Assembly (NCBI GenBank): GCA_946410525.1
Contig: CAMKAQ010000005.1
Span: 1-13,486 of the forward strand
Source: an uncultured Caryophanales bacterium
GTDB lineage: Bacteria; Bacillota_I; Bacilli_A; RFN20; CAG-826
DNA length: 13,486 nucleotides
Reading direction: 5' to 3'
The notes under the pieces were generated by a model. That model made no database searches. It was not told the DNA's origin and worked only from the letters and a program-made list of their open reading frames with translations. This document shows, one piece after another, positions 1-13,486 of this stretch. Positions within the stretch are counted from its first letter, which is position 1; the number at the start of each line of letters is the position of its first letter. A program made the translations under genes and the position numbers.

Positions 1-264
1 CGGAGTCAAAATGAGCTGCTTGCTCGCATTTTCTAAAGTGAAGATCTCGGAGGATTCGGTGATGGCGGTTCCTTCGCCGTGGAAGACGAAAGAGGTGGCC
101 GCGCCAGAGGTCTCCATTATCTTGGTTATTGCACTGCCCTGTCCTTGGTTAACGACGGTGACGGCGACATAAAGAGGGACGTAGACCTTCTTTGCTTCCT
201 GGTTTGAAGGTGCTTCGCTGGCTTTTGGCGTGCGTTTCAAAACGAAGCGTCTTTTCTCGCTCAT
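1..264 (-). CDS. PII-like nitrogen-regulator family protein, 3' end cut by the window edge
   Basis: Only the first 88 codons are present; the gene runs off the left edge. After a basic, low-complexity leader of about 26 residues, the chain reads as a PII-type ferredoxin-like fold: a beta strand (about 28-38), a VNQGQG turn (38-43), a helix, then FHGEGTA (61-67). The last part resembles the HGxGT segment of the PII-like proteins that accompany DUF1538 genes. The ATG at 264 overlaps the TGA of the DUF1538 gene (ATGA) and has a perfect AGGAGG seven bases upstream, so the two are almost certainly translationally coupled. PII proteins are trimeric sensors that bind effectors such as ATP, ADP or 2-oxoglutarate and gate a partner protein, classically the ammonium channel AmtB. 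By analogy this one may control the DUF1538 membrane protein. The T-loop and C-terminus cannot be judged. The N-terminal extension is not typical of classical GlnB. Confidence 0.75.
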   Translation of the reverse strand, partial: MSEKRRFVLKRTPKASEAPSNQEAKKVYVPLYVAVTVVNQGQGSAITKIMETSGAATSFVFHGEGTAITESSEIFTLENASKQLILTP

Positions 265-1853
265 GCTTTGGCCTCCTCAAAGGAAATGATGACGAGGTCG
301 TCATCTTCGTGGAATCTCTTACGGACGATGTAGTTGTTGATGGAGCGTTTGATGTTGGCATATAAGCCCATGCCCTGAACGACGATGAGAGGCATCAAAG
401 CGATCATGGCGATCGCGCCAAAGGCGTTCTCAAAGACCTCTTGGGCACCGTTGCTCTGATATGCGAAGCCGATGACGAACGGAACGACGAAAGTAGATGC
501 CATAGGACCACTGGCAACTCCGCCAGAGTCAAACGCCATCGCGGTGTAGATCTTTGGAACCAAGAACGATAATCCCAAAGCGATGATGTAGCCAGGGATC
601 ATGTAATAGAGAATGCTGAAGCCATAATAGGCACGGATGAGCGCGAGAGCGACGCCTCCGCCAACGGACAAAGCCATGACAAGTCCGACGGTCATCGATT
701 TGATTGTTCCTTCGGAAACGATTTCAACCTGATGGATGAGAACGTGGACCGCAGGTTCAGCGAGAACGCCGAATAAGCCAAAGGCCGCACCGATGATTAT
801 GGCGATTCCTAATGTGCCTTCCGATGTGCCTAGGCCTTTTCCAACTTCTTGCGCAACCGGAAGGAAGCCGATGTTGACCGCAGCAAGGAAAATAACCAAA
901 CCGAAGTAGGCATAAAGCATGTTGATGAGGATTTTGACGATTCTCACACGGCGTGACTTGATGAAAATAAGGTCGTAGATGAGATAGAAGAGGGTTGTTG
1001 GAGCGATTGCGATTCCAACCATTCCGAGTTCGCTAAGGAAATGTCCGCCAGAAGAAGAGAAGAAAGCCGGCCAGAACTCTTCAAAGGTTTCATAGGCTGT
1101 AATCGGATTATCAGTCCAAACGTAGACCATTGAATCGACGTCGAGGAAAAGCGAAAGAACCATGACGGTGATGATCGGTCCAACAGACGCTAAAGCAGTT
1201 AAGCCGAAGGAGTCTTCACCGCTTCTTCCACCGCTCGCGGTTGATGCCGCTAAACCTGCGCCGAAGGCGAGGATGAATGGAACGGTGACTGGACCCGTAG
1301 TAACACCGCCCGAATCAAAGCAGATCGGAAGGAACTTCGGGTTAACGATTCCGGCTAACATGAACACCAAACCATAGAAGCAGATGAACATGATATTGAG
1401 GTTCTTGTTGAAGATGATTCTAAGGACGCCAAAGACAACGAAGAGACCAACGCCAATTCCGATGATGGCGATGAGCAAAACCTCATCCACGCCAATCTGA
1501 GCAGCCGTGACTTTGAGGTCTGGTTCAGCGATGGTGACAAGGACGCCGATGATGAACGTTGTAGCGATGACAAAGAAGATTTTTCTCTTTTTGAAGAGGG
1601 ATTCGCCGATGATTTTTCCAATCGCGGACATTGAAGCCTCAGATCCAACGTTGAACAAAGAGAGGCCAAGAACGATTAAAGCCGAGCAGATTAAGAAGGA
1701 TACGTAAGCAGGCAAGTTGAAATCACCAACGATACCTGTGAAGAAGACGATTGAGATGACGGCAACGATCGGAAGGACGCTCGCAAAAGACCCGCGCAGC
1801 TTCAAAAGGAAGGCTGAACGGAAGAATGTCTTACTTGCGGCGTTTGCTTCCAT
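261..1853 (-). CDS. DUF1538 family multi-pass membrane protein (two repeats), putative transporter
   Basis: This 530-residue, very hydrophobic integral membrane protein has roughly a dozen or more transmembrane stretches. The sequence shows an internal duplication: AEPDLKV (109-115) recurs as AEPAVHV (365-371), and FDSGGVTTGP (179-188) recurs as FDSGGVASGP (441-450), both offset by about 260 residues. These motifs and the two-repeat layout match the DUF1538 family, whose substrate I do not know. The C-terminus (about 503-530) is charged and probably cytoplasmic. The ATG at 1853 is chosen because AAAGGGAG lies six bases upstream; it overlaps the end of the pseudouridine synthase gene by 23 bases. 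The downstream PII-like gene starts at an ATGA overlap. A duplicated membrane protein with signature acidic/glycine re-entrant-like motifs suggests a transporter or channel regulated by PII. The transport role is inference; the family assignment is firm. Confidence 0.85.
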   Translation of the reverse strand: MEANAASKTFFRSAFLLKLRGSFASVLPIVAVISIVFFTGIVGDFNLPAYVSFLICSALIVLGLSLFNVGSEASMSAIGKIIGESLFKKRKIFFVIATTFIIGVLVTIAEPDLKVTAAQIGVDEVLLIAIIGIGVGLFVVFGVLRIIFNKNLNIMFICFYGLVFMLAGIVNPKFLPICFDSGGVTTGPVTVPFILAFGAGLAASTASGGRSGEDSFGLTALASVGPIITVMVLSLFLDVDSMVYVWTDNPITAYETFEEFWPAFFSSSGGHFLSELGMVGIAIAPTTLFYLIYDLIFIKSRRVRIVKILINMLYAYFGLVIFLAAVNIGFLPVAQEVGKGLGTSEGTLGIAIIIGAAFGLFGVLAEPAVHVLIHQVEIVSEGTIKSMTVGLVMALSVGGGVALALIRAYYGFSILYYMIPGYIIALGLSFLVPKIYTAMAFDSGGVASGPMASTFVVPFVIGFAYQSNGAQEVFENAFGAIAMIALMPLIVVQGMGLYANIKRSINNYIVRKRFHEDDDLVIISFEEAKA

Positions 1854-2832
1854 TTTTCGCTCCCTTTAGCTTAGCCTCTTCTGCTTTGGCGCGTTTTTCA
1901 GCATGGGATACCCAGAAAAGCTTCTTGAAGCAGGCTGGCATCTCAGCACGGATTTTGTATTCTTTCCCGTTTAACGGATTTGTGAAGTCGAGTTCGTAGG
2001 CATGGAGACCAAGTCTCTTGAGTGGGTTCGATGGCTCTCCATAGCGGTCATCACCGATGATGTAGTGGCCGATGTTTCCAAGCATGACACGGATTTGGTT
2101 CTTACGTCCGGTGTCGATGTTGACATCAAGAAGGGCGTATCCGCCTTTGGCGGCCATCTTTTTGTAGTGGGTAATCGCGAGTTTGCTGTTCTTTTTGCTC
2201 TTGGTGACTCTGACCTGGAAAGTGGTCTCGTCTAACCAGAGATAGTTCTTAAGGGTTTGTTCTTCAGGGATATCTTCGCCTTCAACGATTGCGTAGTAGC
2301 CACGCTTGGTGACGATTTCCTGCCAGTGATTCTGGAGGGCTTCTTTGACTTCGAAGCTCTTAGCGAAAATCAAAACGCCTGAGGTATCTTCGTCGATACG
2401 GTGAACGACAAAGACACGGGCTTTCTTGTTTGTTTGAGTGAGCCAATCTGTGACTAAACGATAGGCGGTTTTGCCTTTTTCTCTGTCGCTTGCGACAGAA
2501 AGAAGGCCTGATGGCTTATCAATGGCGATGATGTCCTCATCTTCGTAAATGATTGGAAGATCTTTTCTTTCTCTCTTCTTGATTGGGGTCCAGCTGACTG
2601 TGACTTCATCTTCTGGGTAAAGCTTATAGAACCACTCATTGACTGGCGCGCCTCCAACGGCGACCTGGTGGTTAGAAATCATGTGGCGGATATTGTGCTG
2701 AGACTGCTTCGCCATCTTCTGACGAAGGAACGTCAAAAGATCGGTTTCGTGGTACACCAAATAAGTCTTGGTTTTGTTTGGGTCTATGAAACCTTTTCGA
2801 GGTTGATTTCTTTTAACGTCATTTTTGTTCAT
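1831..2832 (-). CDS. RluA-family RNA pseudouridine synthase
   Basis: This 333-residue protein would isomerise specific uridines in rRNA or tRNA to pseudouridine. An S4-like RNA-binding region is visible at about 30-80. The catalytic domain carries HRIDEDTSG (144-152) with the catalytic aspartate D147, then GRKNQIRV (242-249), GDDRYG (260-265) and LHAYELDF (276-283), all in RluA/RluC/RluD order. The GRKNQIRV stretch departs from the common GRTHQIRVH, as in some subfamilies, so the target base cannot be assigned. The tail from about 311 is rich in lysine and arginine. The ATG at 2832 has no obvious Shine-Dalgarno sequence; a possible extended -10 box ends six bases upstream (see promoter entry). 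The gene is first in a unit with DUF1538 and the PII-like gene, overlapping DUF1538 by 23 bases. That pairing is probably co-transcription rather than shared function. Confidence 0.92.
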   Translation of the reverse strand: MNKNDVKRNQPRKGFIDPNKTKTYLVYHETDLLTFLRQKMAKQSQHNIRHMISNHQVAVGGAPVNEWFYKLYPEDEVTVSWTPIKKRERKDLPIIYEDEDIIAIDKPSGLLSVASDREKGKTAYRLVTDWLTQTNKKARVFVVHRIDEDTSGVLIFAKSFEVKEALQNHWQEIVTKRGYYAIVEGEDIPEEQTLKNYLWLDETTFQVRVTKSKKNSKLAITHYKKMAAKGGYALLDVNIDTGRKNQIRVMLGNIGHYIIGDDRYGEPSNPLKRLGLHAYELDFTNPLNGKEYKIRAEMPACFKKLFWVSHAEKRAKAEEAKLKGAKNGSKRRK

Positions 2833-2838
2833 AAAAGT

Positions 2839-2863
2839 ATCTTATCAAAATGTGATTTTGATA
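2839..2863 (-). promoter_or_regulatory. Perfect inverted repeat over a possible -10 box upstream of the pseudouridine synthase operon
   Basis: On the plus strand, TATCAAAAT (2843-2851) and ATTTTGATA (2855-2863) are exact inverted 9-bp arms around GTG, as expected for an operator bound by a dimeric regulator. A further half-site ATTTTGAT lies at 2880-2887, 25 bp away. On the minus strand, TGA-TAAGAT (2847-2839) could act as an extended -10 box, which would place the transcript start at or near the ATG (2832). An alternative -10 is TATATA (2867-2862), which would put the repeat in the transcript as a hairpin. I do not recognise the regulator. Confidence 0.55.
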
Positions 2864-2888
2864 TATACCTATTCGACGAATTTTGATG

Positions 2889-2918
2889 AAAAAAGTCAAA
2901 GCAGCTTAAGGCTACTTT
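2889..2918 (-). terminator. Intrinsic terminator of the putrescine operon, overlapping the amidase stop codon
   Basis: On the minus strand, AAAGTAGC and GCTGCTTT form an 8-bp stem (one G-U pair) around a 5-base loop, followed after GAC by six T residues (2894-2889). The TAG stop codon of the N-carbamoylputrescine amidase (2914-2912) lies inside the first arm of the stem. It separates the putrescine genes from the pseudouridine synthase unit. Confidence 0.75.
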
Positions 2919-3775
2919 GAGGCGTCGTGCTTGAGCAAATCTTCGTAAAGATCGGTGCGGCGATCGCGGTAAACACCCCATCCGAAGCGCTCTTTGGCGA
3001 TTTCGGAAAGGTCGAATTCCGCGTAGCGGATTCCTTCTTCTTCGCGGTTCATCTCTTCGACAAAGTCGCCATGCTGATCGGCGATAAAAGAGGAGCCGTA
3101 GAACTTCATGGAGGATTTTCCCATGGACTCAACACCGACTCTGTTAGATGCCATGACTGGCATGATGTTTGCGGCAGCGTGTCCTTTCATGACGTTCTGC
3201 CAATGGCTCTTGGAATCTTTTGGAAGAACCGGTTCGGAACCGATCGCGGTTGGGAAAAGAAGGATCTCGGCGCCTTTGAGAGCGAGGATTCTCGCAGTCT
3301 CTGGGAACCATTGGTCCCAGCAAATGCCAACACCGATGTTTCCAGCTTTGGTCTTGAAGACTTTGAATCCGGTGTCGCCTGGGGTGAAGTAGAACTTCTC
3401 CTCATAGCATTCGCCGGTTGGGATGTGGCTCTTGCGGTAGATGTCGACGATGGAGCCATCCTTGTCGATCATGGCAAGAGAGTTGAAATAGCAGTTTCCA
3501 GATTTCTCGAAGAAAGAAATTGGGAGAACGATTTTGTATTCTTTCGCCATCTCTTGGAAGTGCTTCAAGGTCTTGGAATCTTTGGCCTCTTCCGCTTTGG
3601 CAAAGAAATCATAATTCTCGATTTGGCAGAAGTAATATCCCTCGAATAATTCAGGGAGCAAAAGCAAATCCACGCCGTTTTTGCTGGCGGTTTTTATAAA
3701 TTCATCGGCTTTTTCAATGCATTTCTCATAATTGTCTGGCATTGAGAATTGGGTAATGGCAACTTTGATTTTCAT
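2912..3775 (-). CDS. aguB: N-carbamoylputrescine amidase
   Basis: This 287-residue nitrilase-superfamily enzyme hydrolyses N-carbamoylputrescine to putrescine, ammonia and CO2, the last step of the agmatine route, in the cytoplasm. The Glu-Lys-Cys triad is visible: E42 in LLPELFEG, K115 in YRKSHIP and C152 in GICWDQWFPE. The segment around EKFYFTPGDTGFKVF (126-140) is characteristic of N-carbamoylputrescine amidases as opposed to other nitrilases, and the length is typical. The ATG at 3775 shares its A with the TAA of the upstream decarboxylase-deiminase gene (TAATG), and a perfect AGGAGG (3788-3783) lies within the end of that gene, so the two are translationally coupled. The deiminase domain immediately upstream makes its substrate, which strongly supports the assignment. 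Confidence 0.95.
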   Translation of the reverse strand: MKIKVAITQFSMPDNYEKCIEKADEFIKTASKNGVDLLLLPELFEGYYFCQIENYDFFAKAEEAKDSKTLKHFQEMAKEYKIVLPISFFEKSGNCYFNSLAMIDKDGSIVDIYRKSHIPTGECYEEKFYFTPGDTGFKVFKTKAGNIGVGICWDQWFPETARILALKGAEILLFPTAIGSEPVLPKDSKSHWQNVMKGHAAANIMPVMASNRVGVESMGKSSMKFYGSSFIADQHGDFVEEMNREEEGIRYAEFDLSEIAKERFGWGVYRDRRTDLYEDLLKHDASK

Positions 3776-6393
3776 TAGTTATCCTCCTTGGCTGGGACCT
3801 GCATGGTGATGCAGTGGATATTTCCTCCGCCATAAAGAATCTCAAGGGTGTTGACCTGATGGATTTCTTTATCCGGATAGACCTTCTTCATGGTCTTGAG
3901 GGCAGTTTCGTCTTCTTTGATTCCGAAGGCTGGCAGGATGATGAAGTCCTTGCCTTGGTAGTAGTTGACGTATGAGGCGGCTAAGCGACGTCCCGCCTCT
4001 CTCTTATCGAGGGTGTTGTTATTGTTCACGAGGGACTTGGCTTCTTCTTTGCCTAGGTAGAGCGGTGAAGGAAGCTTCATCTTGTGGATGATGAATTCTC
4101 TTCCTTTCGCGTCGGTTTGTTTCTTGAGAGCGCGGTACGCTTTCTGGCAATAGTCATATTGCGGATCGTTCTTGTCGGTTGTCCATGCGAGCATGACTTC
4201 GCCTGGTCTTACGAAGGAAACCATGTTGTCGATATGTTCATTGGTCTCGTCTTCATAGATTCCATGAGGAATCCAAACGATCTTCTCAACACCGATATAC
4301 TCACGAAGGACCTCTTCGATTTCGGTCTTGGTGAGACATGGGTTTCGTCCTGGAGAGAGGAGGCAGGCTTCTGTGGTAATAAGTGTTCCTTCTCCATCGA
4401 CTGCGATTGAACCGCCTTCGAGGACGAATTTCGGGTGGACATAGGACATAAGCCCCATCTTCTTTGAGATCACTGACCTGAGTCTGTCATCGTCTTTGTA
4501 GTTCTTATAGAGACCGTCATAGTCTCCGCCCCAAGCGTTGAAGCGGAAATCAACGGTTCTGAGATTCTTTCCGTTGGTGACGAATAAAGGCATATTGTCA
4601 CGAGCCCAAGCGTCGTTATAACGGACCGAGATTGTCTCAACGTTTGGAATTCTCTCGTAGATAGGCGCAAGGGTCTTGTGGAAGCTTGGATGGATGCCCA
4701 CTACAACTTTCTCATGCTTCGCGATAGCAGATATAACGTCCTTATACGCAACCTGAGCAGGTCTTGCTTTCTTTCTCCAAGTATCAAGACGGAATGGCAA
4801 AAGAACCAAGGTCTCTTGATGCTCCTTGCCTTCAAACGGAACATGGTATCCATCATTGAGAGGGGTGGTCTTTTTGGTGCGGTGATAGTCGCTCAGTTTC
4901 TTCTCATAGACGGAGAAGCGACGCCAATTATCGGTGTCGATGACTTGAAACCCATCTTTAAAAGATGAGAGGAGGCGGATGCCTTCTTTCTTGTGCTCTT
5001 GGAAGAACTTAACCCTCTTGATGAGGTCTTTGGTCCAGACCTCGCCAGGAACGATAAGAGGGATTCCTGGGGGGTACATCATGACCTGCTCTTTGGAGAC
5101 GGTTCCGTCTAACTCATCGAGAGGCAAAACCTTTCCTGGAGCATGGAAGGCAACACGAGGCCTTGTGAGCATGAACGGGAATGAGCTATCGAAGTGATGG
5201 TCTTCGTAAACGATGTCTTTGTGGTAATGCTTCGCGGAGATGTCTTTGAGAGCCTCAACCAAAGCATCGACGTGCTTTCTCTTCGTTCCGATGGCGAAGA
5301 CACACATGATTTCGTATGTCTCAGCGAGCTCAACCTGAACTTTGTATTCGTCGATGAGGAGACGGTACAAATCAAATCCATCAATATCGAGCTTATCGAT
5401 CGCGATAACAAACTTGCTGGAGTCGTAGTCATAGGCTCCGTTCGATTTGAAGTAGGCTTTGTCTTTGACTTCGAAACCTTTGATTTGGTTGATTTTCTTT
5501 CTCGCATACTCGACGAGCTTATAGGTGTCTGCCATAGCGTTCTGGCCCTTTTTGGAGGCCATGAAAGCACGAGCGCCGTCTAAGGACGCCATAAGCAAAG
5601 TCGATGGTGAGGTAGTGTTCAAAATGTTGAGAGAAATCTGAACCTCTTCTTTTCTGAACAGGTGTTCGTTCAAAAGAAGAACGGAGGATTGGGTCAATGA
5701 GCCAGCAGTCTTATGGAAGGAGACAGCAGACATATCAGCTCCCGCATCCATAGCGGTCATTGGCTGGCCTTCGATATGGAAATAGAAGTGAGCGCCATGG
5801 GCTTCATCAACAAGGACGGCCATATGGTGTTCGTGAGCATACTCAACAAGTTCCTTGAGATCACCGACCGCACCGAAGTAGGTTGGGTTGATAACAAAAA
5901 TGGCCTTAGCGGACGTATTTCTGTTGATGGCCTTCTTCCACTCTTCGAGTGTTGGCTGATTGGCAATCTCAAGGTCGTTGTCGATCTGAGGCATGACATA
6001 AACAGGGACGGCACCAGAAATCGTCAAAGCGTTGATGACGGATTTGTGGATGTTACGAGGAAGGATGATCTTCTCCCCCGCTTTGACTGCGGTCATGATC
6101 ATGGCGATGATGCCGCTAGAAGTTCCGTTGATTAAAAAGAAAGACTCGTCAGCGTGGCAGGCTTCCGCCATAAGCTGTTCCGCTTCCATGATGACGCCAT
6201 TAGGTTTGGCGAGGTTATCTAATCCGACTGGGGCATTGACGTCACAAAGAAAAGCTTCGTGGCCTAAAACCCTTGTCGCAGCATTCTCTACATTGCCCAT
6301 GTGATGTCCTGGGACATCAAAAGGAGAGACGTCTTTCTTGATGTAATTCTCTAAAGCCGTGATAAACGGGGTATGTTTCTGACCCAATTTCAT
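3775..6393 (-). CDS. Arginine decarboxylase - agmatine deiminase fusion protein
   Basis: This single 872-residue protein would convert arginine to agmatine and then to N-carbamoylputrescine. Residues 1 to about 490 form a PLP-dependent fold-type I Orn/Lys/Arg decarboxylase of the SpeA (Bacillus) type, with DVPGHHMG near the N-terminus, DEAHGAH (D196), SFHK with the PLP lysine K228, and the C-terminal YPPGIPLIVPGE (440-451). After a short linker, residues from about 512 to 872 are a complete agmatine deiminase: DAWARDN, FNAWGG, LEGGSIAVDGEGTL, SPGRNP, NEHIDN and GGGNIHC with the catalytic cysteine C861. No stop or frameshift separates the halves. The neighbouring deiminase and amidase point to arginine rather than lysine or ornithine as substrate, although the decarboxylase sequence alone does not prove it. 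The ATG at 6393 is chosen over an in-frame GTG at 6471 because that GTG lies inside the preceding terminator. No Shine-Dalgarno sequence precedes it. Confidence 0.93.
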   Translation of the reverse strand: MKLGQKHTPFITALENYIKKDVSPFDVPGHHMGNVENAATRVLGHEAFLCDVNAPVGLDNLAKPNGVIMEAEQLMAEACHADESFFLINGTSSGIIAMIMTAVKAGEKIILPRNIHKSVINALTISGAVPVYVMPQIDNDLEIANQPTLEEWKKAINRNTSAKAIFVINPTYFGAVGDLKELVEYAHEHHMAVLVDEAHGAHFYFHIEGQPMTAMDAGADMSAVSFHKTAGSLTQSSVLLLNEHLFRKEEVQISLNILNTTSPSTLLMASLDGARAFMASKKGQNAMADTYKLVEYARKKINQIKGFEVKDKAYFKSNGAYDYDSSKFVIAIDKLDIDGFDLYRLLIDEYKVQVELAETYEIMCVFAIGTKRKHVDALVEALKDISAKHYHKDIVYEDHHFDSSFPFMLTRPRVAFHAPGKVLPLDELDGTVSKEQVMMYPPGIPLIVPGEVWTKDLIKRVKFFQEHKKEGIRLLSSFKDGFQVIDTDNWRRFSVYEKKLSDYHRTKKTTPLNDGYHVPFEGKEHQETLVLLPFRLDTWRKKARPAQVAYKDVISAIAKHEKVVVGIHPSFHKTLAPIYERIPNVETISVRYNDAWARDNMPLFVTNGKNLRTVDFRFNAWGGDYDGLYKNYKDDDRLRSVISKKMGLMSYVHPKFVLEGGSIAVDGEGTLITTEACLLSPGRNPCLTKTEIEEVLREYIGVEKIVWIPHGIYEDETNEHIDNMVSFVRPGEVMLAWTTDKNDPQYDYCQKAYRALKKQTDAKGREFIIHKMKLPSPLYLGKEEAKSLVNNNNTLDKREAGRRLAASYVNYYQGKDFIILPAFGIKEDETALKTMKKVYPDKEIHQVNTLEILYGGGNIHCITMQVPAKEDN

Positions 6394-6413
6394 TGCGCAT
6401 ATATAATACGCAT
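6390..6413 (-). other. Possible 7-codon leader ORF overlapping the decarboxylase start
   Basis: ATG at 6413 opens a short frame encoding MRIIYAQ, whose TGA overlaps the decarboxylase ATG as ATGA. GGGG lies six bases upstream of this ATG and could be a weak ribosome-binding site. If transcription starts upstream of it, this leader could couple translation into the main gene, which has no Shine-Dalgarno sequence of its own. It conflicts with the leaderless model, in which the -10 box lies inside this frame. Chance is quite possible for such a short ORF. Confidence 0.2.
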
Positions 6414-6430
6414 TCGCTACCCCATGTGAA
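6394..6430 (-). promoter_or_regulatory. Promoter and imperfect palindrome of the putrescine operon
   Basis: On the minus strand, TTCACA (6430-6425) is a -35-like box, followed by a 16-bp spacer and TATTAT (6408-6403) as -10; each matches five of six consensus bases. Only nine bases separate the -10 box from the ATG, so the transcript start would fall about 2-4 bases before the gene. An imperfect inverted repeat, TGCGTAT and ATGCGCA (6412-6406 and 6400-6394, one mismatched pair), brackets the -10 box and could be an operator. Confidence 0.5.
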
Positions 6431-6455
6431 ATTATTTTTTGACCCTTAATGGGAT

Positions 6456-6487
6456 AAAAAATAAACCGCACGGGTTTCGTGCGGTTT
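6456..6487 (-). terminator. Strong intrinsic terminator after the glycosyltransferase gene
   Basis: A perfect 10-bp stem, AAACCGCACG (6463-6472) with CGTGCGGTTT (6478-6487), has a 5-base loop. Read on the minus strand it is followed by A and six T residues (6461-6456). It lies about 30 bp downstream of the glycosyltransferase stop and just before the decarboxylase promoter, insulating the two units. On the plus strand five T residues follow the stem, but no gene on that strand needs it. Confidence 0.88.
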
Positions 6488-6515
6488 TTGTCGTGGATTT
6501 TTGGTTTTCTTTAGC

Positions 6516-7547
6516 TTAGTTGAACTTAACGATTTTGTGTCCAATCGTGAAGCCGGTTCTAGCTATAAGAGTTCCAAGGCCAAGAGGAAGGTTAATGAAC
6601 CAGATGAGTGGGTGACGTTTGATCTTCTTGTATTGGCGTTTGTTGTTGGTCTTGCAGTGTCTCCAGAAATCCTTGAGGGCTTCTCTGGATTCTTTTGTTC
6701 CAACGTATTTGGCCCAGAGGACGGAGAGAATCATATTCATGATCAAGTGATGGAAGACGGCTTTGTAGGTCGCTTTGTCTTTGATCGAGTAGATGTCGAT
6801 GGCGTCGAAGATGAGCTTTCCGTCGATAAGGAAGTCTTTGTACTTCTTAACGAGGTTGGAGGTCTGCATGGACTGTCCATCTCTGCCAGTGAGGTACTGG
6901 TAGACACTCACAGGGACGTAACGGATCTCTTTGACGAACGCCATTGGGGCGTAGATGAAGTAGTTGTCTTCATAGGAGACGTGTCCTGGGCAATGGACTC
7001 CGCTTTCTCTAAGGGTAGCGGTCCTATACATGGTGGTATGTAAGGTAAGGTTACGGTCGTAGCGGAAAGGCTTAATGCAGGACCATGGTCCGCCTTTGGC
7101 GGCATCATAATCTTTGCCTTTGAAAAGGTAGTTGAAGTTGATGGTGGCGTCTTTGTTGTCTCTGCCGTGCCAATAGGTGTAGTCGGTGAAGTAGAGGTCG
7201 GCTTTGCAGTTTTGCTCTTTGACGTCTTTGAGAAGGGCGGCAAATCCATCGTGATCCACCCAGTCGTCGCTATCGAGGACGCGGAAATAGACACCGGTGG
7301 CAAGCTGTAAGCCGTGGTTGATGCCTTCGCCATGTCCGCCATTTGGCTGGTGGACGGCTTTGATGAATGGGTGTTCGGCTGCGTACTTGTCAGCAATCTC
7401 ACCCGTTTTGTCTTTGGATCCATCATCAATGATGATGACTTCGACGTCTTCCCCAAATGGGATGAGGGAATCGACGGCGTAGTGCAAGAATTCCTCGCTG
7501 TTGTAAGCAGGAATGCACACTGTGATTAATTTCTGTTTTGTATTCAT
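6516..7547 (-). CDS. Family 2 glycosyltransferase (GT-A fold)
   Basis: This 343-residue protein transfers a sugar from an activated nucleotide donor, most likely onto an envelope polysaccharide or glycolipid. The N-terminal GT-A core is clear: ITVCIPAYNSEEF, VIIIDDGSKDKTGE (DDGS at 41-44), HQPNGGHGEGINHGL, and DSDDW (92-96) as the metal/nucleotide-binding DxD-type motif. SYEDNYF further on is the usual acidic acceptor-side motif. The C-terminus is basic and then hydrophobic (about 305-343), which suggests association with the inner face of the membrane rather than several full membrane spans. Donor and acceptor are unknown. Proximity to UDP-galactopyranose mutase makes a galactofuranose-containing polymer possible, but this is inference. 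The ATG at 7547 fits the usual family start. An in-frame TTG at 7577 would add ten residues. Neither has a good Shine-Dalgarno sequence. Confidence 0.88.
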   Translation of the reverse strand: MNTKQKLITVCIPAYNSEEFLHYAVDSLIPFGEDVEVIIIDDGSKDKTGEIADKYAAEHPFIKAVHQPNGGHGEGINHGLQLATGVYFRVLDSDDWVDHDGFAALLKDVKEQNCKADLYFTDYTYWHGRDNKDATINFNYLFKGKDYDAAKGGPWSCIKPFRYDRNLTLHTTMYRTATLRESGVHCPGHVSYEDNYFIYAPMAFVKEIRYVPVSVYQYLTGRDGQSMQTSNLVKKYKDFLIDGKLIFDAIDIYSIKDKATYKAVFHHLIMNMILSVLWAKYVGTKESREALKDFWRHCKTNNKRQYKKIKRHPLIWFINLPLGLGTLIARTGFTIGHKIVKFN

Positions 7548-7585
7548 AGGTAAATTACTTGTTTCGCTTGTGGGCAAGCCTAGTA

Positions 7586-7617
7586 ATTATACACATTTAA
7601 AACTACCTTAAAAGGTA
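7586..7617 (-). promoter_or_regulatory. Glycosyltransferase -10 box with an upstream TACCTT/AAGGTA inverted repeat
   Basis: A consensus TATAAT lies on the minus strand at 7591-7586; no convincing -35 box accompanies it. Just upstream, TACCTT (7604-7609) and AAGGTA (7612-7617) form a 6-bp-arm inverted repeat around AA, in the position of the -35 region. It resembles repeats in the glf/peptidase intergenic region. Read on the minus strand it is followed by GTTTT, so a weak terminator for the glycoside hydrolase gene is an alternative reading. Confidence 0.45.
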
Positions 7618-7641
7618 AAGAAGTGTTTTTGTAGAATTTGT

Positions 7642-10122
7642 CTAGTTTTCTAAAGCCTTTTTCGCAGCATTTTCTAACGCTTCGTCGCGAGCTTTCTTTC
7701 TTTGTTTTTTGACTTTGCCTTGGCGGATGAACTCACGGAGTCCTTTGAAGAACTTGCCGTTGCACATCATGATGAGACCACCAAGCTGTCCCCAACCGAT
7801 CATGCCGCCTGAAGCGCGGGACATGTTTCTTAATGGGGTGTAGTACATACCCATGGTCATAGTATCGGCCAAGGATCTGTTGCCGAAGGCTGGAAGAATC
7901 TTGATGACGACGCGGATGGCCCACTCAAAGAAACGGCCAAACCAGCCTTTCGCGTAGCGAAGGTCGTAGATGGTTGTCTCAGGAGTGACCATGATTCTGT
8001 TCTTCTTGATGAAGACGACTGGTTCCTCGATCTTTCTGCCAAGAAGGGTTTCGAATTCCTCTTGGTCGACGCGTCTGACCTTTCCGCTGAAATAGGAAGG
8101 AAGTTTCTCTTTGTCATATGGCGCTGGAGCGTTGGTGCCTTCTTGATGGATCTTGCCAACAAGAGGGAACGAAGCGCTTGATGGACCAACATAGATGTCG
8201 TAGTCCCCTGCTTCAACTTCCCACTTGTTGGTGAGGACGTTGAAGTAACGGAAAGTATATTCATCGAATGGGATGCTGACTTCTTTTGTTTCGCCTGGTT
8301 TGATTTCGACTTTGGCGAATCCTTTAAGTTCAAAAGCTGGACGGAAGATTGCGCTCTCTTTGAGACCAACATACATTTCAGCGACTTCTTTGCCAACGAC
8401 GCTTCCGGTGTTCTTGATCTTGAAGGAGACGCCCTTCTCATCAACCTTGAGGTCACTGTATTCGAAGCTGGTGTATGAAAGACCGTAGCCGAATGGGAAT
8501 CTTGGAGAGATGTCGGCAGTCGAGAAGTAGCGGTAACCGATATATGGTCCTTCACGATATTCGACTAAGCCATTCTGCCAGCCAAAGGTTTCGGCGCTTG
8601 GGCAGTCTTCATAGGTGTATGGGAGGGTTTCGGAAAGCTTTCCAGAAGGATTGACCTTGCCAGCAAGGACTTCGATCATGGCTCTCGCGCCAGCCTCGCC
8701 GCCGAGGTAGCCGTGGACGAGGGCGTTGACGTTGTCGACAAACGGAAGCTCAACAGGCGAACCCGCACTCAAAACGCAGACGATTGGGGTTCCGATTTCA
8801 TGCAATTTCTCCAGCAAATCCAACTGATTTTTTGGAATTGCCATGGTTTTTCTGTCAAGGCCTTCGGTCTCGCTGTGCTCATCTAAACCGAGGAAATAGA
8901 GAACAACATCAGCCTTTGAGGCGAGGGCGCAAGCCTTCTTTCTGAGGCCTTTGCTCTTCTTGCCGTATCTCTTGAAACCAGGCTCGTAACCAATGAAGTT
9001 GATGCCTGATCCTTCTTCTTTGGCGACCTCAAGAGCGGACTCGACTTTGATTGGGTTAACAATACTGGAGCCTGCACCTTGGTAACGCGGTTTATCGGCG
9101 AAGTCACCGATGATGGCGACCTTGGTTTCTGGTTTGAGAGGGAGAATGTCTCCTTCGTTCTTCAAAAGGACGATCGATTCTCTAGCGACCGTAAGAGCGG
9201 CTTCGTGGTTGGCCTCTTTGTCGGTCTCTGGTTTCTTGTTTTTGAGGTTCTTGTTCGTGAGCAAAGCCAAATCGATGATGCGATCGATGGCCTCATCAAC
9301 GTATTTCTCATCTAAGGTTCCGTCTTTGACGGCGTTAAAGACATCGTCATTGGTTTCACCGCCGGTGGAAGGCATCTCAACTTCGTTGGAGGCTTTCAAA
9401 CCGAGGATACGGTCGTTCTCTCCGCCCCAGTCGGTGATGATGATTCCTTTGTATCCCCAATCCTTGCGGAGAATATCGAGGAGAAGGTGTTCGTTCTCGT
9501 TGGCGTAGGTGCCGTTGAGCTTGTTATAAGAAGACATGATGCTCTTGGCTTTGCCTTCTTTGATGGCAATTTCAAAACCAGTGAGATAAATCTCACGGAG
9601 AGTTCTTTCATCGACGATGGAGTTGGACGCCATCCTCTTGATTTCTTGGTTATTGGCAGCGAAGTGCTTTGGACATGCGCTGATGCCGTTTTCCTGAACG
9701 CCAGCGATGTAGTTGGCGGCCATCTTACCGGCAAGATATGGATCTTCGGCGAAGTATTCGAAGTTACGTCCACAGAGTGGATTTCTCTTCATGTTGAGAG
9801 CGGGAGCGAGAAGAACGCTAACGTCATTTGTCGCAGCTTCTTCACCGATGGTTTTGCCCATCAAATGGGCCATCTCAACATTCCAGGTGTTCGCGGTTGT
9901 CGCAGAAGATGGGAAACATGTAGCAGGAATGGATGGGTTGAGACCAAGGTTGTCGGCTTGGCTTGCTTGCTTCCTCAAACCTGTTGGACCATCTGAGAAG
10001 AACATCGAAGGCAAATCGATGCTTGGCAAGTTCATTGTTTGCCAGAAGTCTTTGCCACTTAATAAGGAAACCTTTTCCTCGAGGGTGAGCTTGGAGATTA
10101 AGTCTTTGTGTTTGAGGGCCAT
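7642..10122 (-). CDS. Glycoside hydrolase family 3 protein (beta-glucosidase type)
   Basis: This 826-residue enzyme probably releases terminal beta-linked sugars from oligosaccharides. No signal peptide is seen, so it should act in the cytoplasm. The layout is a (beta/alpha)8 barrel (1 to about 290) with FSDGPTGLR, NFEYFAEDP and PKHFAANN (151-158), and the nucleophile D231 in IITDWGG. An alpha/beta sandwich follows (about 310-515), with TEGLDR (419-424) carrying the likely acid/base glutamate. A fibronectin-III-like domain lies at about 560-650. The last 165 residues are an extra region with amphipathic segments and a lysine/arginine-rich tail, of a type I recall from some Firmicute GH3 enzymes. 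The ATG at 10122 has AAGGAG six bases upstream. The gene follows glf by 25 bp, so they form one operon. Sugar specificity cannot be read from sequence; a furanosidase or other role in galactofuranose turnover is only a possibility. Confidence 0.92.
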   Translation of the reverse strand: MALKHKDLISKLTLEEKVSLLSGKDFWQTMNLPSIDLPSMFFSDGPTGLRKQASQADNLGLNPSIPATCFPSSATTANTWNVEMAHLMGKTIGEEAATNDVSVLLAPALNMKRNPLCGRNFEYFAEDPYLAGKMAANYIAGVQENGISACPKHFAANNQEIKRMASNSIVDERTLREIYLTGFEIAIKEGKAKSIMSSYNKLNGTYANENEHLLLDILRKDWGYKGIIITDWGGENDRILGLKASNEVEMPSTGGETNDDVFNAVKDGTLDEKYVDEAIDRIIDLALLTNKNLKNKKPETDKEANHEAALTVARESIVLLKNEGDILPLKPETKVAIIGDFADKPRYQGAGSSIVNPIKVESALEVAKEEGSGINFIGYEPGFKRYGKKSKGLRKKACALASKADVVLYFLGLDEHSETEGLDRKTMAIPKNQLDLLEKLHEIGTPIVCVLSAGSPVELPFVDNVNALVHGYLGGEAGARAMIEVLAGKVNPSGKLSETLPYTYEDCPSAETFGWQNGLVEYREGPYIGYRYFSTADISPRFPFGYGLSYTSFEYSDLKVDEKGVSFKIKNTGSVVGKEVAEMYVGLKESAIFRPAFELKGFAKVEIKPGETKEVSIPFDEYTFRYFNVLTNKWEVEAGDYDIYVGPSSASFPLVGKIHQEGTNAPAPYDKEKLPSYFSGKVRRVDQEEFETLLGRKIEEPVVFIKKNRIMVTPETTIYDLRYAKGWFGRFFEWAIRVVIKILPAFGNRSLADTMTMGMYYTPLRNMSRASGGMIGWGQLGGLIMMCNGKFFKGLREFIRQGKVKKQRKKARDEALENAAKKALEN

Positions 10123-10147
10123 ATCCTACTCCTTCTATGTTTTATGT

Positions 10148-11269
10148 TTAGGCAATGCCTAAGGCTTTAAGCTTATCGAACATCTCTTTGGCAGCGATGA
10201 TGCAATCATCCATGTCGTAATACTTGTAGACCGCAAGCCTTCCAAGGAAGAAGGTCTTTGGCTCAAGCTTGGCCGAGAGTTCTTTATAGGCAGCGGCGAG
10301 GCTATTGTTCTTCTCGTCGTTGATTGGGTAGCAAGGAATCTTTCCTTCTTCGAAGGTATCCGGGTACTCAAATGTGACAAGGGTCGAATGATGGTTCTTG
10401 CAGAACGGATCAAAGGCCTTGTGCTCAGCGCAGCGGGTGTATGGCTGATCGTGAGTGGTGAAGTTGATGACCGGGTTGTTCTGATAACGGTCCATCTGCA
10501 TCCACTGATTGTCGAAGCGGAGGGATCTGTATTCGAGCTTGCCGAGCTTGAATGAGAAGTACTCATCAAGACGTCCGGTGTAGATGACGTGGTCCGCCAT
10601 CGCATCCCATTTTTCTTTCTCTTCGAAGTAATCCACGCCGGTTTTGACGTCGATTTCTTTCAAAAGGTTCTGAACCCACTTGGAATAACCGCCGACTGGG
10701 AGACCCTGCCAGGAGTCATTGAAGTAGTTGTTGTTGTATTCAAATCTCAAAGGCAAACGTTTGATGATGCTGGCAGGAAGCTCTTTGCAATCTCTGCCCC
10801 ACTGCTTCTCGGTGTAGCCTTTGATGAGTTTCTCGTAGATGGTGCGGCCAACGAGTTTGATGGCTTGCTCTTCGAGGTTCTTTGGTTCATCGATGTGTTC
10901 CTTCTCAACCTCTTCCGCGATTTTGGCTTTCGCCTCTTCCGCGGTGGTGACACCCCATAACTCATGGAAGGTGTTCATGTTGAAAGGCATGTGGTAGAAC
11001 TCGCCATGGCAGTTAGCGATAGGCGAGTTGATGAATGGATAAACTTCAACATTCTTGTTGAACATATCCCAGGCGAATTTGTCTGAGGTATGGAAAATGT
11101 GTGGTCCATAAGTGTGGACGATGATGCCATCTTGGATGGCTGTGGAAATATTGCCGCCGACATCGTCGCGTTTCTCGATGACGAGAACCTTCTTACCGGC
11201 GTTCTTAAGTAAGTTGGCGATCGTTGAGCCAGAAAGGCCGCTGCCAACAATCAAGTAATCGTAATGCAT
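10148..11269 (-). CDS. glf: UDP-galactopyranose mutase
   Basis: This 373-residue flavoprotein interconverts UDP-galactopyranose and UDP-galactofuranose, the donor for galactofuranose in cell-surface glycans. The N-terminal Rossmann segment DYLIVGSGLSGS binds FAD, followed by VIEKRDDVGGN. The family signatures YGPHIFHTSD, KGYTEKQWGRD, LPLRFEYNNNYFND and LPVGGYSKW are all present, and the length is normal. The ATG at 11269 has AGGAG five bases upstream; an in-frame GTG at 11275 overlaps that Shine-Dalgarno sequence and is rejected. It is the first gene of the unit with the GH3 enzyme. Galactofuranose is absent from mammals, and the gene implies that this organism builds galactofuranose into a surface polymer. 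Confidence 0.96.
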   Translation of the reverse strand: MHYDYLIVGSGLSGSTIANLLKNAGKKVLVIEKRDDVGGNISTAIQDGIIVHTYGPHIFHTSDKFAWDMFNKNVEVYPFINSPIANCHGEFYHMPFNMNTFHELWGVTTAEEAKAKIAEEVEKEHIDEPKNLEEQAIKLVGRTIYEKLIKGYTEKQWGRDCKELPASIIKRLPLRFEYNNNYFNDSWQGLPVGGYSKWVQNLLKEIDVKTGVDYFEEKEKWDAMADHVIYTGRLDEYFSFKLGKLEYRSLRFDNQWMQMDRYQNNPVINFTTHDQPYTRCAEHKAFDPFCKNHHSTLVTFEYPDTFEEGKIPCYPINDEKNNSLAAAYKELSAKLEPKTFFLGRLAVYKYYDMDDCIIAAKEMFDKLKALGIA

Positions 11270-11293
11270 AAGCACTCCTATTCAGACCGGTAT

Positions 11294-11337
11294 ATTTTAC
11301 CTTAACCTAGGGTAAAAGTGCTACAATACCAAAGGTA
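11294..11337. promoter_or_regulatory. Divergent glf / M24 peptidase promoter region with TACC/GGTA inverted repeats
   Basis: On the plus strand, an extended -10 box TGC-TACAAT (11319-11327) precedes the peptidase ATG (11343), giving a leader of roughly 9 bases. On the minus strand, TAAAAT (11299-11294) could be the glf -10 box, with a leader of about 18 bases that includes the AGGAG. Between them lies an inverted repeat, TTTTACC (11295-11301) and GGTAAAA (11311-11317), centred near the palindrome CCTAGG (11306-11311). A second repeat, TACC-AAA-GGTA, spans 11327-11337. Both overlap promoter elements, as expected for operators. Confidence 0.5.
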
Positions 11338-11342
11338 AATTT

Positions 11343-12530
11343 ATGAAAAAGAACGAAGTTATACATGAAGCGCTGGCAAAAGAAGGCGCAGATGCTTGGG
11401 TTATCGTCGACTACGAAAACAGAAATAAAACCCTAGTCGAGTTCCTTGGTAACAGGATGCTCACGAGAAAGATTTTCCTCGTCTTCCCGCTTAGCAAGAA
11501 GCCTTTCATCATCTGTCATTCAATCGACACCGTTTTCCTTAGGGACGAAGAGATCACGAGTCAATTCGACCTTAAGGTCTACCATACCTGGCAAGAGATG
11601 CTCGATATCGAGAGGAAAGAATTCGCCGAATATAAGAAAGTCCTTATGGACATCTCCGAGTTTGGTCTCCTCCCAAGAATCTCTTTAGCCGACTATGGCT
11701 CAGTCGAATTCGTTAAGAGCCTTGGCATCGAAGTCGCTTCAAGCGGAAACCTCCTTCAGAGATTCAGCGCTTTATATAGCGATAGAGCCTATGAGCTTCA
11801 GTTCCTCGCAAACAAAAAGACCCTCATGATCAAAGATGAGGCTTTCGCCAAAATCAAAGAACTCATTCTTAAGAATGGCGAGACCAGCGAATACGAGATT
11901 CAGAAATTCATCTGCGATAGATTCCACGAAGAAGGCATGGTCTATGACGACCCTGCTATCGTTGCGATTGGCAAGAACGCTTCCGACCCTCACTATGGAC
12001 CAAGCAAAGAAGTCTCCTCCCCTATCAAGAAAGGCGACTTGGTCCTTATCGATATGTGGGCGAAGATGGATGACCCTGAAGGCGTCTACGCCGACATCAC
12101 CTGGATGGGTTATGTTGGAGAAGAAGTCCCGGAGGTTTATGCGAAGAGATTCGAAATCTTAAAGAAGGCGATTGAGGCCGATTTCGAGTTCCTCAAAAAC
12201 GAGCTTCCTAAGAGAGCGGTCGCCGGTTACGAAGTTGACCAAATCTCAAGAGATTACATAAAAGAGGCAGGATTTGCTGAGTATTTTGTCCATAGAACCG
12301 GACATAACATCGCGGTTGATGTCTCTCCTCACGGCCCTGGCGTCAACATCGATAACTATGAGTCGCACGACATTCGTGAGATCATCGACGGAGTCACTTT
12401 CTCCCTTGAGCCAGGCATCTACGCACCTGACTTCGGCATGAGAAGCGAGACCAATGTCTATATCAAAGACAGGCAGCCAATTTACGTTGCTGGACATCAA
12501 GAAGAGATCATCGCGATTCTCAAAGATTAA
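11343..12530 (+). CDS. M24 family metallopeptidase (Xaa-Pro aminopeptidase / PepQ type)
   Basis: This 395-residue cytoplasmic enzyme probably cleaves peptides or dipeptides next to proline. The N-terminal creatinase-like domain spans about 1-150 and the pita-bread catalytic domain about 155-395. All five metal ligands are visible: D237 in VLIDMW, D251 in YADITWMG, H321 in HRTGHNI, E356 in FSLEPGIY and E369 in RSETNVY. The two aspartates are 14 residues apart, slightly wider than the usual DxGxxxxxYxxDxT spacing, because of a small insertion (KMDDPEG). HRTGHN replaces the more common HGxGHG. It could act as a prolidase or an aminopeptidase P; sequence alone does not decide. AAAGG (11331-11335) is a weak Shine-Dalgarno candidate but may lie at the very 5' end of the transcript. 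The gene is monocistronic, with its own terminator. Confidence 0.9.
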   Translation: MKKNEVIHEALAKEGADAWVIVDYENRNKTLVEFLGNRMLTRKIFLVFPLSKKPFIICHSIDTVFLRDEEITSQFDLKVYHTWQEMLDIERKEFAEYKKVLMDISEFGLLPRISLADYGSVEFVKSLGIEVASSGNLLQRFSALYSDRAYELQFLANKKTLMIKDEAFAKIKELILKNGETSEYEIQKFICDRFHEEGMVYDDPAIVAIGKNASDPHYGPSKEVSSPIKKGDLVLIDMWAKMDDPEGVYADITWMGYVGEEVPEVYAKRFEILKKAIEADFEFLKNELPKRAVAGYEVDQISRDYIKEAGFAEYFVHRTGHNIAVDVSPHGPGVNIDNYESHDIREIIDGVTFSLEPGIYAPDFGMRSETNVYIKDRQPIYVAGHQEEIIAILKD

Positions 12531-12542
12531 CCTCAGTTCTAG

Positions 12543-12576
12543 AAGGTCGGCCAAATTTGACCGACTTTTTCTTTTT
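12543..12576 (+). terminator. Intrinsic terminator of the M24 peptidase gene
   Basis: AAGGTCGG (12543-12550) pairs with CCGACTTT (12561-12568) through one G-U pair, with a 10-base loop that could pair further (CAAA with TTTG). T-rich sequence (TTTTTCTTTTT, 12566-12576) follows. It lies 12 bp after the stop codon. Confidence 0.85.
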
Positions 12577-12585
12577 GTCTAGAAT
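12557..12585 (+). promoter_or_regulatory. Promoter of the radical SAM gene
   Basis: TTGACC (12557-12562), a 17-bp spacer and TAGAAT (12580-12585) form the best promoter in the window, with five of six bases matched in each box. The -35 box sits in the loop and second arm of the preceding terminator. The -10 box ends 11 bases before the ATG, so the transcript would carry a leader of only about 4-6 bases. Confidence 0.65.
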
Positions 12586-12596
12586 AGGCAAGTCTT

Positions 12597-13486
12597 ATGA
12601 AATTCTCATCCTTCATGAAATTTGCTGGTTTTGGAATCAGCACAATTCTCTTTCGCAGGAAGAAACCTATTTTAGGAACGGTCATCGTCACCGATAAGTG
12701 CAACCTCCACTGCAAACACTGTTCTGTCAATAACATCACCGCGGTCATCCACCCATATGAGCAGATCAAGGGCGAGATGAAGCAGCTCTATGACATGGGC
12801 GTGCGCATCCTCTTTTTCTGTGGAGGCGAGACCTTCATGTGGAAGGACGGAGACAAGACCCTTAGAGACCTCGTCATCGAGGCGAAAAAGATGGGCTTCC
12901 TCATCGTTAACGTTGTCACGAACGGAACCTGGCCAATCGATTTGCCAGAGGCGGACTTAATTTTATTAAGTCTTGATGGCGATAAGGTCCACCACAACAT
13001 CATCAGAGGCGAGACCTACGACACCATCTTCGAGAACATCTCCAAGGCCACCTCAGACAACATCTGTTTCTATATGGCCGTCAACCAGATCAACAAGGAT
13101 TGTATCCGTGACGTCTGTGAAAAAGCCCGCGACACCAAGAACGTCAGAGCGGTCTCTTTCAACTTTCACACCCCATACCCAGACACCAAAGAACTCAAAC
13201 TCACCAAAGAAGATAAAGCCAAATGCTGCGAGACCATAAAGCAGATGATGAAGGAAGGGTGCCCTGTCTTTAACCTCAAGAGCGCATTCCCATATATCAT
13301 CGAGAACAAGTTCCCAACCCCATGCCACCAGTGTGTCGTCATGGAGAATGGAAAGCTTTCCGTCTGCGGGCGTTGCATCGATGTCCCAGGCCTTTGTGAT
13401 GAATGCGGCTACTTCTTCGTCGCCGAATATACCCTTCTCTTCAGGGGCAACTTGAAGATCATCTTCGAGATGCTAAGGACTTACCT
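12597..13486 (+). CDS. Radical SAM protein with three C-terminal CxxC pairs, 3' end cut by the window edge
   Basis: The visible 296 codons encode a radical SAM enzyme, which uses a [4Fe-4S] cluster to cleave S-adenosylmethionine and start radical chemistry. The cluster motif is CNLHCKHC (C35, C39, C42), followed by FFCGGET, the SAM-binding GGE motif. The N-terminus is short, hydrophobic and basic (about 1-25), ending in RRKKP just before the first strand. The C-terminal part holds six cysteines at 243, 246, 257, 260, 267 and 270 (CX2C-X10-CX2C-X6-CX2C), suggesting an auxiliary Fe-S cluster or zinc site, followed by a hydrophobic stretch. This is not a clean SPASM pattern that I recognise. The substrate is unknown and no precursor peptide or partner gene is visible; whatever follows lies beyond the edge. 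ATG 12597 is preferred to ATG 12615 because neither has a clear Shine-Dalgarno sequence and the promoter fits the first. Confidence 0.88.
   Translation, partial: MKFSSFMKFAGFGISTILFRRKKPILGTVIVTDKCNLHCKHCSVNNITAVIHPYEQIKGEMKQLYDMGVRILFFCGGETFMWKDGDKTLRDLVIEAKKMGFLIVNVVTNGTWPIDLPEADLILLSLDGDKVHHNIIRGETYDTIFENISKATSDNICFYMAVNQINKDCIRDVCEKARDTKNVRAVSFNFHTPYPDTKELKLTKEDKAKCCETIKQMMKEGCPVFNLKSAFPYIIENKFPTPCHQCVVMENGKLSVCGRCIDVPGLCDECGYFFVAEYTLLFRGNLKIIFEMLRTY

Follow-up and report, generated by a model that had tools for sequence, protein, structure and literature searches.

Introduction

The closest published case that we found, going by the available parts of its source, is a fusion protein of Fusobacterium nucleatum in which an ancestral-form decarboxylase of the aspartate aminotransferase (AAT) fold, acting on ornithine, carries at its C-terminus a homologue from the arginine/agmatine branch, an arginase/agmatinase that is thought to be inactive; this type of fusion is reported there only in Fusobacteriaceae (PMC8503589). 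Other polyamine biosynthetic fusions, that of SpeD with a SpeD homologue (PMC10407285) and that of S-adenosylmethionine decarboxylase (AdoMetDC) with an aminopropyltransferase (PMC11107197), involve different enzymes and pathway steps, according to the accessible portions of both reports. Here we analyze a stretch of 13,486 nucleotides (nt) from an uncultured Caryophanales bacterium (GCA_946410525.1, contig CAMKAQ010000005.1, positions 1 to 13,486 of the forward strand; hereafter, the window), in which a putative arginine decarboxylase (SpeA) and an agmatine deiminase (AguA) form one continuous protein.

With the ancestral-form, SpeA-type arginine decarboxylase, as described in the available text of PMC8503589, the decarboxylase half of this protein shares the AAT fold, a length of about 490 residues, the absence of a REC domain and the pyridoxal phosphate (PLP) lysine, but it is joined at its C-terminus to a second enzyme. 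The latter differs from known agmatine deiminases (agmatine iminohydrolases, AguA; 1vkp, 3h7k, 2jer) in that it has no free N-terminus, being attached to the C-terminal helix of the decarboxylase, and its fold is other than that of the partner in F. nucleatum. In the open-access literature searched, a scope outside which most subscription papers lie, no account of a fusion between arginine decarboxylase and agmatine deiminase was found, nor is one given in the available parts of PMC10407285, PMC8503589, PMC11107197 and PMC9992855. Both parts are known enzymes, and the architecture that unites them is apparently undescribed.

Results and discussion

Two full-length enzymes in one reading frame

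An earlier reading of the sequence (the original prediction) had placed a fusion of arginine decarboxylase and agmatine deiminase in one 872-residue frame at 3775..6393, leaving the strand unstated. Coordinates, length and catalytic signatures proved right, and the gene lies on the minus strand, with the following parts.

3775..6393, minus strand: fused speA-aguA gene, 872 amino acids (aa), from the ATG at 6393 to the stop TAA at 3777-3775
4933..6393, minus strand: decarboxylase half, residues 1-487, a complete ancestral-form Orn/Lys/Arg (OKR) decarboxylase
5712-5710, minus strand: PLP lysine K228, in the SFHK motif of the decarboxylase half
4873..4932, minus strand: junction, residues 488-507, formed mainly by the C-terminal helix that belongs to the decarboxylase, with no flexible linker predicted
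3778..4872, minus strand: agmatine deiminase half, residues 508-872
3813-3811, minus strand: catalytic C861, in the GGGNIHC motif of the deiminase half

The frame extends open 5' of the ATG as far as a GTG at 6471. The domain search proposed with the original prediction matched both the decarboxylase and the deiminase models, with OKR_DC_1 (PF01276, 233.2 bits) at residues 8-373, OKR_DC_1_C (PF03711, 39.5 bits) at 418-467 and PAD_porph (PF04371) at 518-867. The N-terminal half has the marks of an ancestral-form OKR decarboxylase, namely PF01276 together with PF03711, the PLP lysine and the lack of a REC domain, for which there is no room since the first match begins at residue 8. The C-terminal half passes the TIGR03380 agmatine deiminase equivalog (430.1 bits versus a cut-off of 381.8, covering positions 1-357 of 357 of the model). 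The arginase/agmatinase domain PF00491, which is C-terminal in the F. nucleatum-type fusion, is not among the listed matches, and the C-terminal domain here is PF04371; the protein does not belong to that type. Profile matches and structure comparison alike show each half to be complete in length. Database names on relatives of the fusion are few and each of them is partial ('arginine decarboxylase', 'lysine decarboxylase' or 'agmatine deiminase').

Occurrence of the fusion

The fusion is real and intact, and the same architecture, which the original prediction had suggested looking for, was found in many other genomes. All of the best 120 of 7998 scored candidates carry both domains and are 858-899 aa long, except for one partial record of 792 aa. 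In addition, 49 distinct fused proteins were read from loci (one of them, in L155, is cut by its contig end). Among 196 order members, 53 contain the full-length fusion uninterrupted. The window's genus (g1) accounts for 22 of these, g5 for 12, g12 for 10, g8 for four and g3 for two; g17 and g29 have a single one each, and the last lies outside the family, in G073 of f5, a genome 74% complete with 3% contamination, where it may reflect transfer or mis-binning. The fusion of G113, which spans a contig break, is additional to these. In the class sample 21 of 395 genomes have it. Of these, 19 fall within the window's family, and f23 supplies the other two (G371, G430), with a fragment at a contig end in G377 as a possible third; in the phylum sample, where only matches at E up to 1e-150 were counted, the figure is 21 of 392, all within the window's family. 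The three samples overlap and many genomes recur in them. The named fused relatives (L032-L049, among 80 loci kept from a larger number of matches) are metagenome-assembled genomes labelled Bacilli, Firmicutes, Bacillales, Erysipelotrichaceae or bacterium, some of them from sheep reticulum and horse faeces. The hosts belong to a small-genome, mostly gut-dwelling lineage, known here only from metagenome-assembled genomes.

Junction and conservation of the two halves

When the predicted model, a monomer, was compared with known structures, alignments to OKR decarboxylase chains stopped at model residue 484-498, with the exception of two Rv2531c rows whose alignment ranges continue to 653-655. 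The highest-ranking alignments to agmatine deiminases started at residue 508. Helices are predicted in between, at 491-495 and 497-506, with a predicted local distance difference test score (pLDDT) of 90 for the block 491-500 and 87 for 501-510, in agreement with the earlier view that the junction has almost no linker. The spacing between W490 and P519 is 29 residues in 75 of 75 aligned fusions, a set chosen for alignment and not comprising all known fusions, whereas other loops vary in length. A regular-expression count over the 49 loci gave 29 in 42 of them, 63 or 66 in five and no value in two; we took the longer spacings to arise from an earlier tryptophan matched by the expression, and prefer the count from the alignment. 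The constant spacing would follow from the C-terminal helix of the decarboxylase running into the deiminase without a linker.

The two catalytic residues named beforehand in the original prediction, K228 and C861, are invariant in the 75 fusions. The same is true of 24 further motif residues, an invariance that is partly by choice because they were picked after viewing the invariant columns. H720, D722, D594 and E659, likewise picked in this way and invariant in all 75, align, as does C861, with solved agmatine deiminases, and we take these five to be the catalytic positions of the deiminase half. Mean identity to the query is nearly equal in the two halves (64.8% and 64.3%), and both halves and the junction are under strong purifying selection, with nonsynonymous divergence (dN) of 0.008-0.061 versus synonymous divergence (dS) of 0.43-1.16 in the comparison with the close relatives L003 and L033 (the comparison with L034 was dropped, as the longest frame taken there was the wrong one, and that with L006 was left out because its dS is saturated). 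In the PDB listings obtained, no single chain was matched over both domains by name.

The downstream aguB gene and the proposed pathway

Two further features overlap the 3' end of the fused gene.

2912..3775, minus strand: aguB, N-carbamoylputrescine amidase, 287 aa (TIGR03381)
3783..3789, minus strand: AAGGAGG, a Shine-Dalgarno-like site of aguB inside the fusion 3' end, read by eye

Base 3775 is common to the stop TAA of the fusion and the ATG of aguB, whose product passes the TIGR03381 equivalog (422 bits versus a cut-off of 410.25). In 47 of the 49 distinct fused loci this gene follows the fusion, with the strand unchanged, at gaps of -38 to +14 nt; in the other two a contig end cuts either aguB (L032) or the fusion itself (L155).

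From the homology of both halves and this gene order, the protein is very probably one bifunctional enzyme converting arginine into N-carbamoylputrescine, which AguB would then convert into putrescine; no other reading is nearly as economical. The PLP-dependent, AAT-fold N-terminal half would transform L-arginine into agmatine; the C-terminal half, through C861, would yield N-carbamoylputrescine and ammonia, as its full-length homology and conserved motifs suggest; and AguB, translated separately from a start that overlaps the fusion stop, would release putrescine, CO2 and ammonia, judging by its family. The fusion would thereby set a 1:1 ratio of the two activities and couple the production of agmatine to its removal. 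That such a fusion speaks for arginine as the substrate of the decarboxylase had already been proposed, and the genomic context lends it support: the attachment to AguA, the aguB gene downstream and a precedent in Bacilli all argue for arginine. In that precedent, two enzymes from Bacilli were selected as probable ornithine decarboxylases, and assay showed them to be arginine decarboxylases instead, according to the available part of PMC8503589.

Origin of the fusion

Eleven distinct loci carry speA, aguA and aguB as individual genes next to one another. These are L050-L054, labelled Anaeroplasma, Acholeplasmatales, Mollicutes or Clostridium, and loci in genomes of f3 g50 and of f27 (14 speA-aguA pairs were listed; the two names in each of L051/L160, L053/L164 and L112/L144 denote one genome). 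If taken from its first start codon (real starts may lie later), the aguA frame begins before speA ends in each of the 11 loci, in frame +1 in nine cases and +2 in L052 and L054, and the C-termini of some of these split SpeA proteins resemble the junction of the fusions. The distance from the codon of the tryptophan to that of the PFEG motif is 87 nt in the fusions and, in six split loci, 88 and 91 nt in f3 g50 (G030, G039), 79 nt in L050 and 52, 49 and 49 nt in f27, from which we infer that a small frame-changing deletion in the f3 g50 layout would suffice to produce a fusion.

Quick, unrooted trees, with support from the Shimodaira-Hasegawa-like approximate likelihood ratio test only, were built after leaving out by name 18 of 86 SpeA rows (near copies and some of the outgroup) and 11 of 65 AguA rows (near copies). 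The fused SpeA halves group together with a support of 80, unstarred; without the basal row L045 the other 34 rows reach 99*. The node that unites the fused halves with the split-operon rows has 98*. In the AguA tree one change is needed between fused and split-operon rows. A single fusion event in a speA-aguA-aguB operon of overlapping genes is most likely, and is the simplest history in view of the split overlapping operons and of the fused SpeA halves grouping beside them.

Other arrangements were also seen. A stand-alone speA occurs within the same family in L115, L116 and L145 (genus g7) and in L117 (g4), and the stretch retrieved around it gave no match to aguA or aguB; these SpeA proteins form the next branch outside the group of fused and split-operon rows. 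The speA match of L123 (G138, genus g24) is in two pieces of 283 and 133 aa, through decay of the gene or an assembly fault. In family f11 (G352, G417, G435, G572) agmatine deiminase is encoded by itself, in frames that contain 6-9 TGA codons in phase, as would be expected if TGA is read as tryptophan.

Polyamine genes in the host genus

PF01276 was matched in 27 of 31 genomes of the genus, including 18 of 18 good ones, with one copy each in open frames of 714-987 aa, the second domain not having been checked in every one; the fusion is the only OKR-type decarboxylase found in the genus. No second PF04371 protein was found in the window's own, incomplete genome. Neither arginase/agmatinase (PF00491) nor AdoMetDC was found in any of the 31 genomes, and nspC was present in two (G140 and G148; loci L124 and L125, the latter at 90-2640). 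In L125 a frame of 444 aa directly upstream of nspC looks by eye like carboxyspermidine dehydrogenase. A few members of the genus may make spermidine. Across the family, the spermidine synthase model PF01564 gave some match in 73 of 116 genomes and one above the cut-off in 57 of 116, most of them partial. Among the 57 are the genus members G045 and G052, at 29.4 and 30.1 bits over positions 19-100 of 186, and fusion-bearing g12 genomes (46.7-51.9 bits for G110, G113 and G142); both matches in the window genome are below the cut-off. We take many of these matches to be other methyltransferases; some members could still have a spermidine synthase. The fusion together with AguB is probably the diamine source in the genus, with putrescine as the probable end product in most members, as suggested by two absences only, those of AdoMetDC (31 of 31 genomes) and nspC (29 of 31).

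Neighbouring genes and local signals

The window contains three other features of interest around the two genes.

6403..6430, minus strand: promoter-like pair, TTCACA at 6430-6425 and TATTAT at 6408-6403, with a 16-nt spacer (consensus scan, 10/12 matches)
6463..6487, minus strand: terminator-like hairpin of 10 pairs with a loop of 5, then ATTTTTT, between the upstream glycosyltransferase gene and the fusion
261-1853, minus strand: gene for a membrane protein with a DUF1538 domain and no known function, two genes downstream of aguB

The promoter-like pair ends 9 nt 5' of the fusion ATG, its second hexamer starting 15 nt before it. Both scans gave counts close to chance (two promoter sites in the region versus 0.8 in shuffles, one terminator versus 0.6). 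No Shine-Dalgarno sequence was seen ahead of the fusion ATG in the window, and only one of 37 upstream regions of fusion loci (39 minus collapsed near copies) has a site of this kind; a laxer pattern additionally flagged L027. A match to TATAAT of at least 5/6 lies within 25 nt of the ATG in 20 of the 37 regions, where shuffles would predict 8.1 and a control stretch gives 8, and 17 of those 20 are at -12 to -16. The recurrence of this hexamer across relatives devoid of a Shine-Dalgarno site suggests that the fusion mRNA may be leaderless.

Neighbours are partly conserved in 24 records including the window (14 have a pseudouridine synthase, 11 have YfhO and nine have a patatin), and none of these other neighbours has a recognised link to polyamines. 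A DUF1538 relative, followed by frames of one small cluster, is present in L033, L043, L044 and L048, with a P-II domain match in L033.

Alternative explanations

Several points weigh against an arginine decarboxylase-agmatine deiminase that arose once. Substrate preference is hard to read from sequence in this decarboxylase family, and the activity is here inferred. The decarboxylase half scores only 55.9 bits with the arginine decarboxylase equivalog NF011603, against a cut-off of 1167; this is a model of the longer, extended form, and the protein, having no N-terminal extension, is not of that form. The deiminase half falls below the cut-off of the NF010070 (PRK13551) subfamily (445.4 bits versus 483), and four of the 31 genus genomes, all less than 90% complete, lack a PF01276 match. 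As for the trees, the low support of the fused SpeA clade is owed to the basal row L045, and the AguA tree has no single fused clade, five unfused rows that belong to no group adjoining L045.

That an assembly join or error reads through a stop between neighbouring genes, at 4.86-4.93 kb as the original prediction had considered, is conceivable in that split, overlapping versions exist in related lineages and a small error could mimic a fusion. This explanation is excluded, and its chance practically nil, in view of the two domains in 120 of 120 listed relatives, the intact copies in 53 of 196 order genomes, the 49 distinct loci and the one junction length in 75 of 75; the fused SpeA halves also group together. 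Nor do we give much credence to one half being catalytically dead or structural, for which a fusion already described from this decarboxylase family offers a model, its C-terminal domain being considered in the available text to be probably without activity (PMC8503589). Such a possibility is very improbable here: K228 and C861 never vary, the halves are equally conserved, the deiminase half passes the TIGR03380 cut-off, and neither a second OKR decarboxylase in the genus nor a second PF04371 protein in the incomplete window genome was found. A dead C-terminal partner in particular was judged unlikely on account of the invariant residues and the TIGR03380 score.

For the bifunctional enzyme, which we prefer, the role of the fusion can be conceived in different ways. 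It may serve only co-expression and equal dosage, agmatine equilibrating freely, an explanation that is compatible with two activities in one chain and competes only with channeling. We consider it rather probable, since the partners adjoin in an operon in related genomes and small soluble intermediates diffuse freely by default; the junction length, constant in 75 sequences while other loops vary, hints at a geometric constraint, although it says little for channeling. Direct transfer of agmatine from decarboxylase to deiminase by a rigid, linker-free enzyme, with little free agmatine released, seems doubtful. The fusion could build a higher-order assembly with the two kinds of active site at a fixed distance, which is conceivable because known relatives of both parts oligomerize. 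It is also rather unlikely that the route is mainly catabolic, arginine being degraded to supply ammonia and consume acid, with putrescine exported as waste. The gene content mentioned above (AdoMetDC in none of the 31 genus genomes, nspC in two), by which putrescine may be an end product in most members, would fit this idea, as would the yield of two ammonia and two CO2 and the DUF1538 membrane protein downstream. However, the last gene is aguB, of the amidase route, while in the agmatine deiminase route that yields ATP, putrescine carbamoyltransferase and carbamate kinase take its place. Neither of these was among the eight window proteins scanned (no genome-wide search was made), and no known amine transporter was noted among the annotated fusion neighbours, in which no search was aimed at transporters.

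Concluding remarks

This protein is a candidate, occurring in nature, for an enzyme that performs two successive steps on the way from arginine towards putrescine within one chain, in bacteria known here only from metagenome-assembled genomes, many of them from animal guts. Besides providing genomic evidence on the substrate of a decarboxylase whose family specificity is hard to predict, the finding brings with it relatives with overlapping operons, which constitute a clean comparison for the effects of fusion on kinetics, assembly and leakage of the intermediate. The pattern of absence of AdoMetDC and nspC suggests that these are bacteria with putrescine as the end product.

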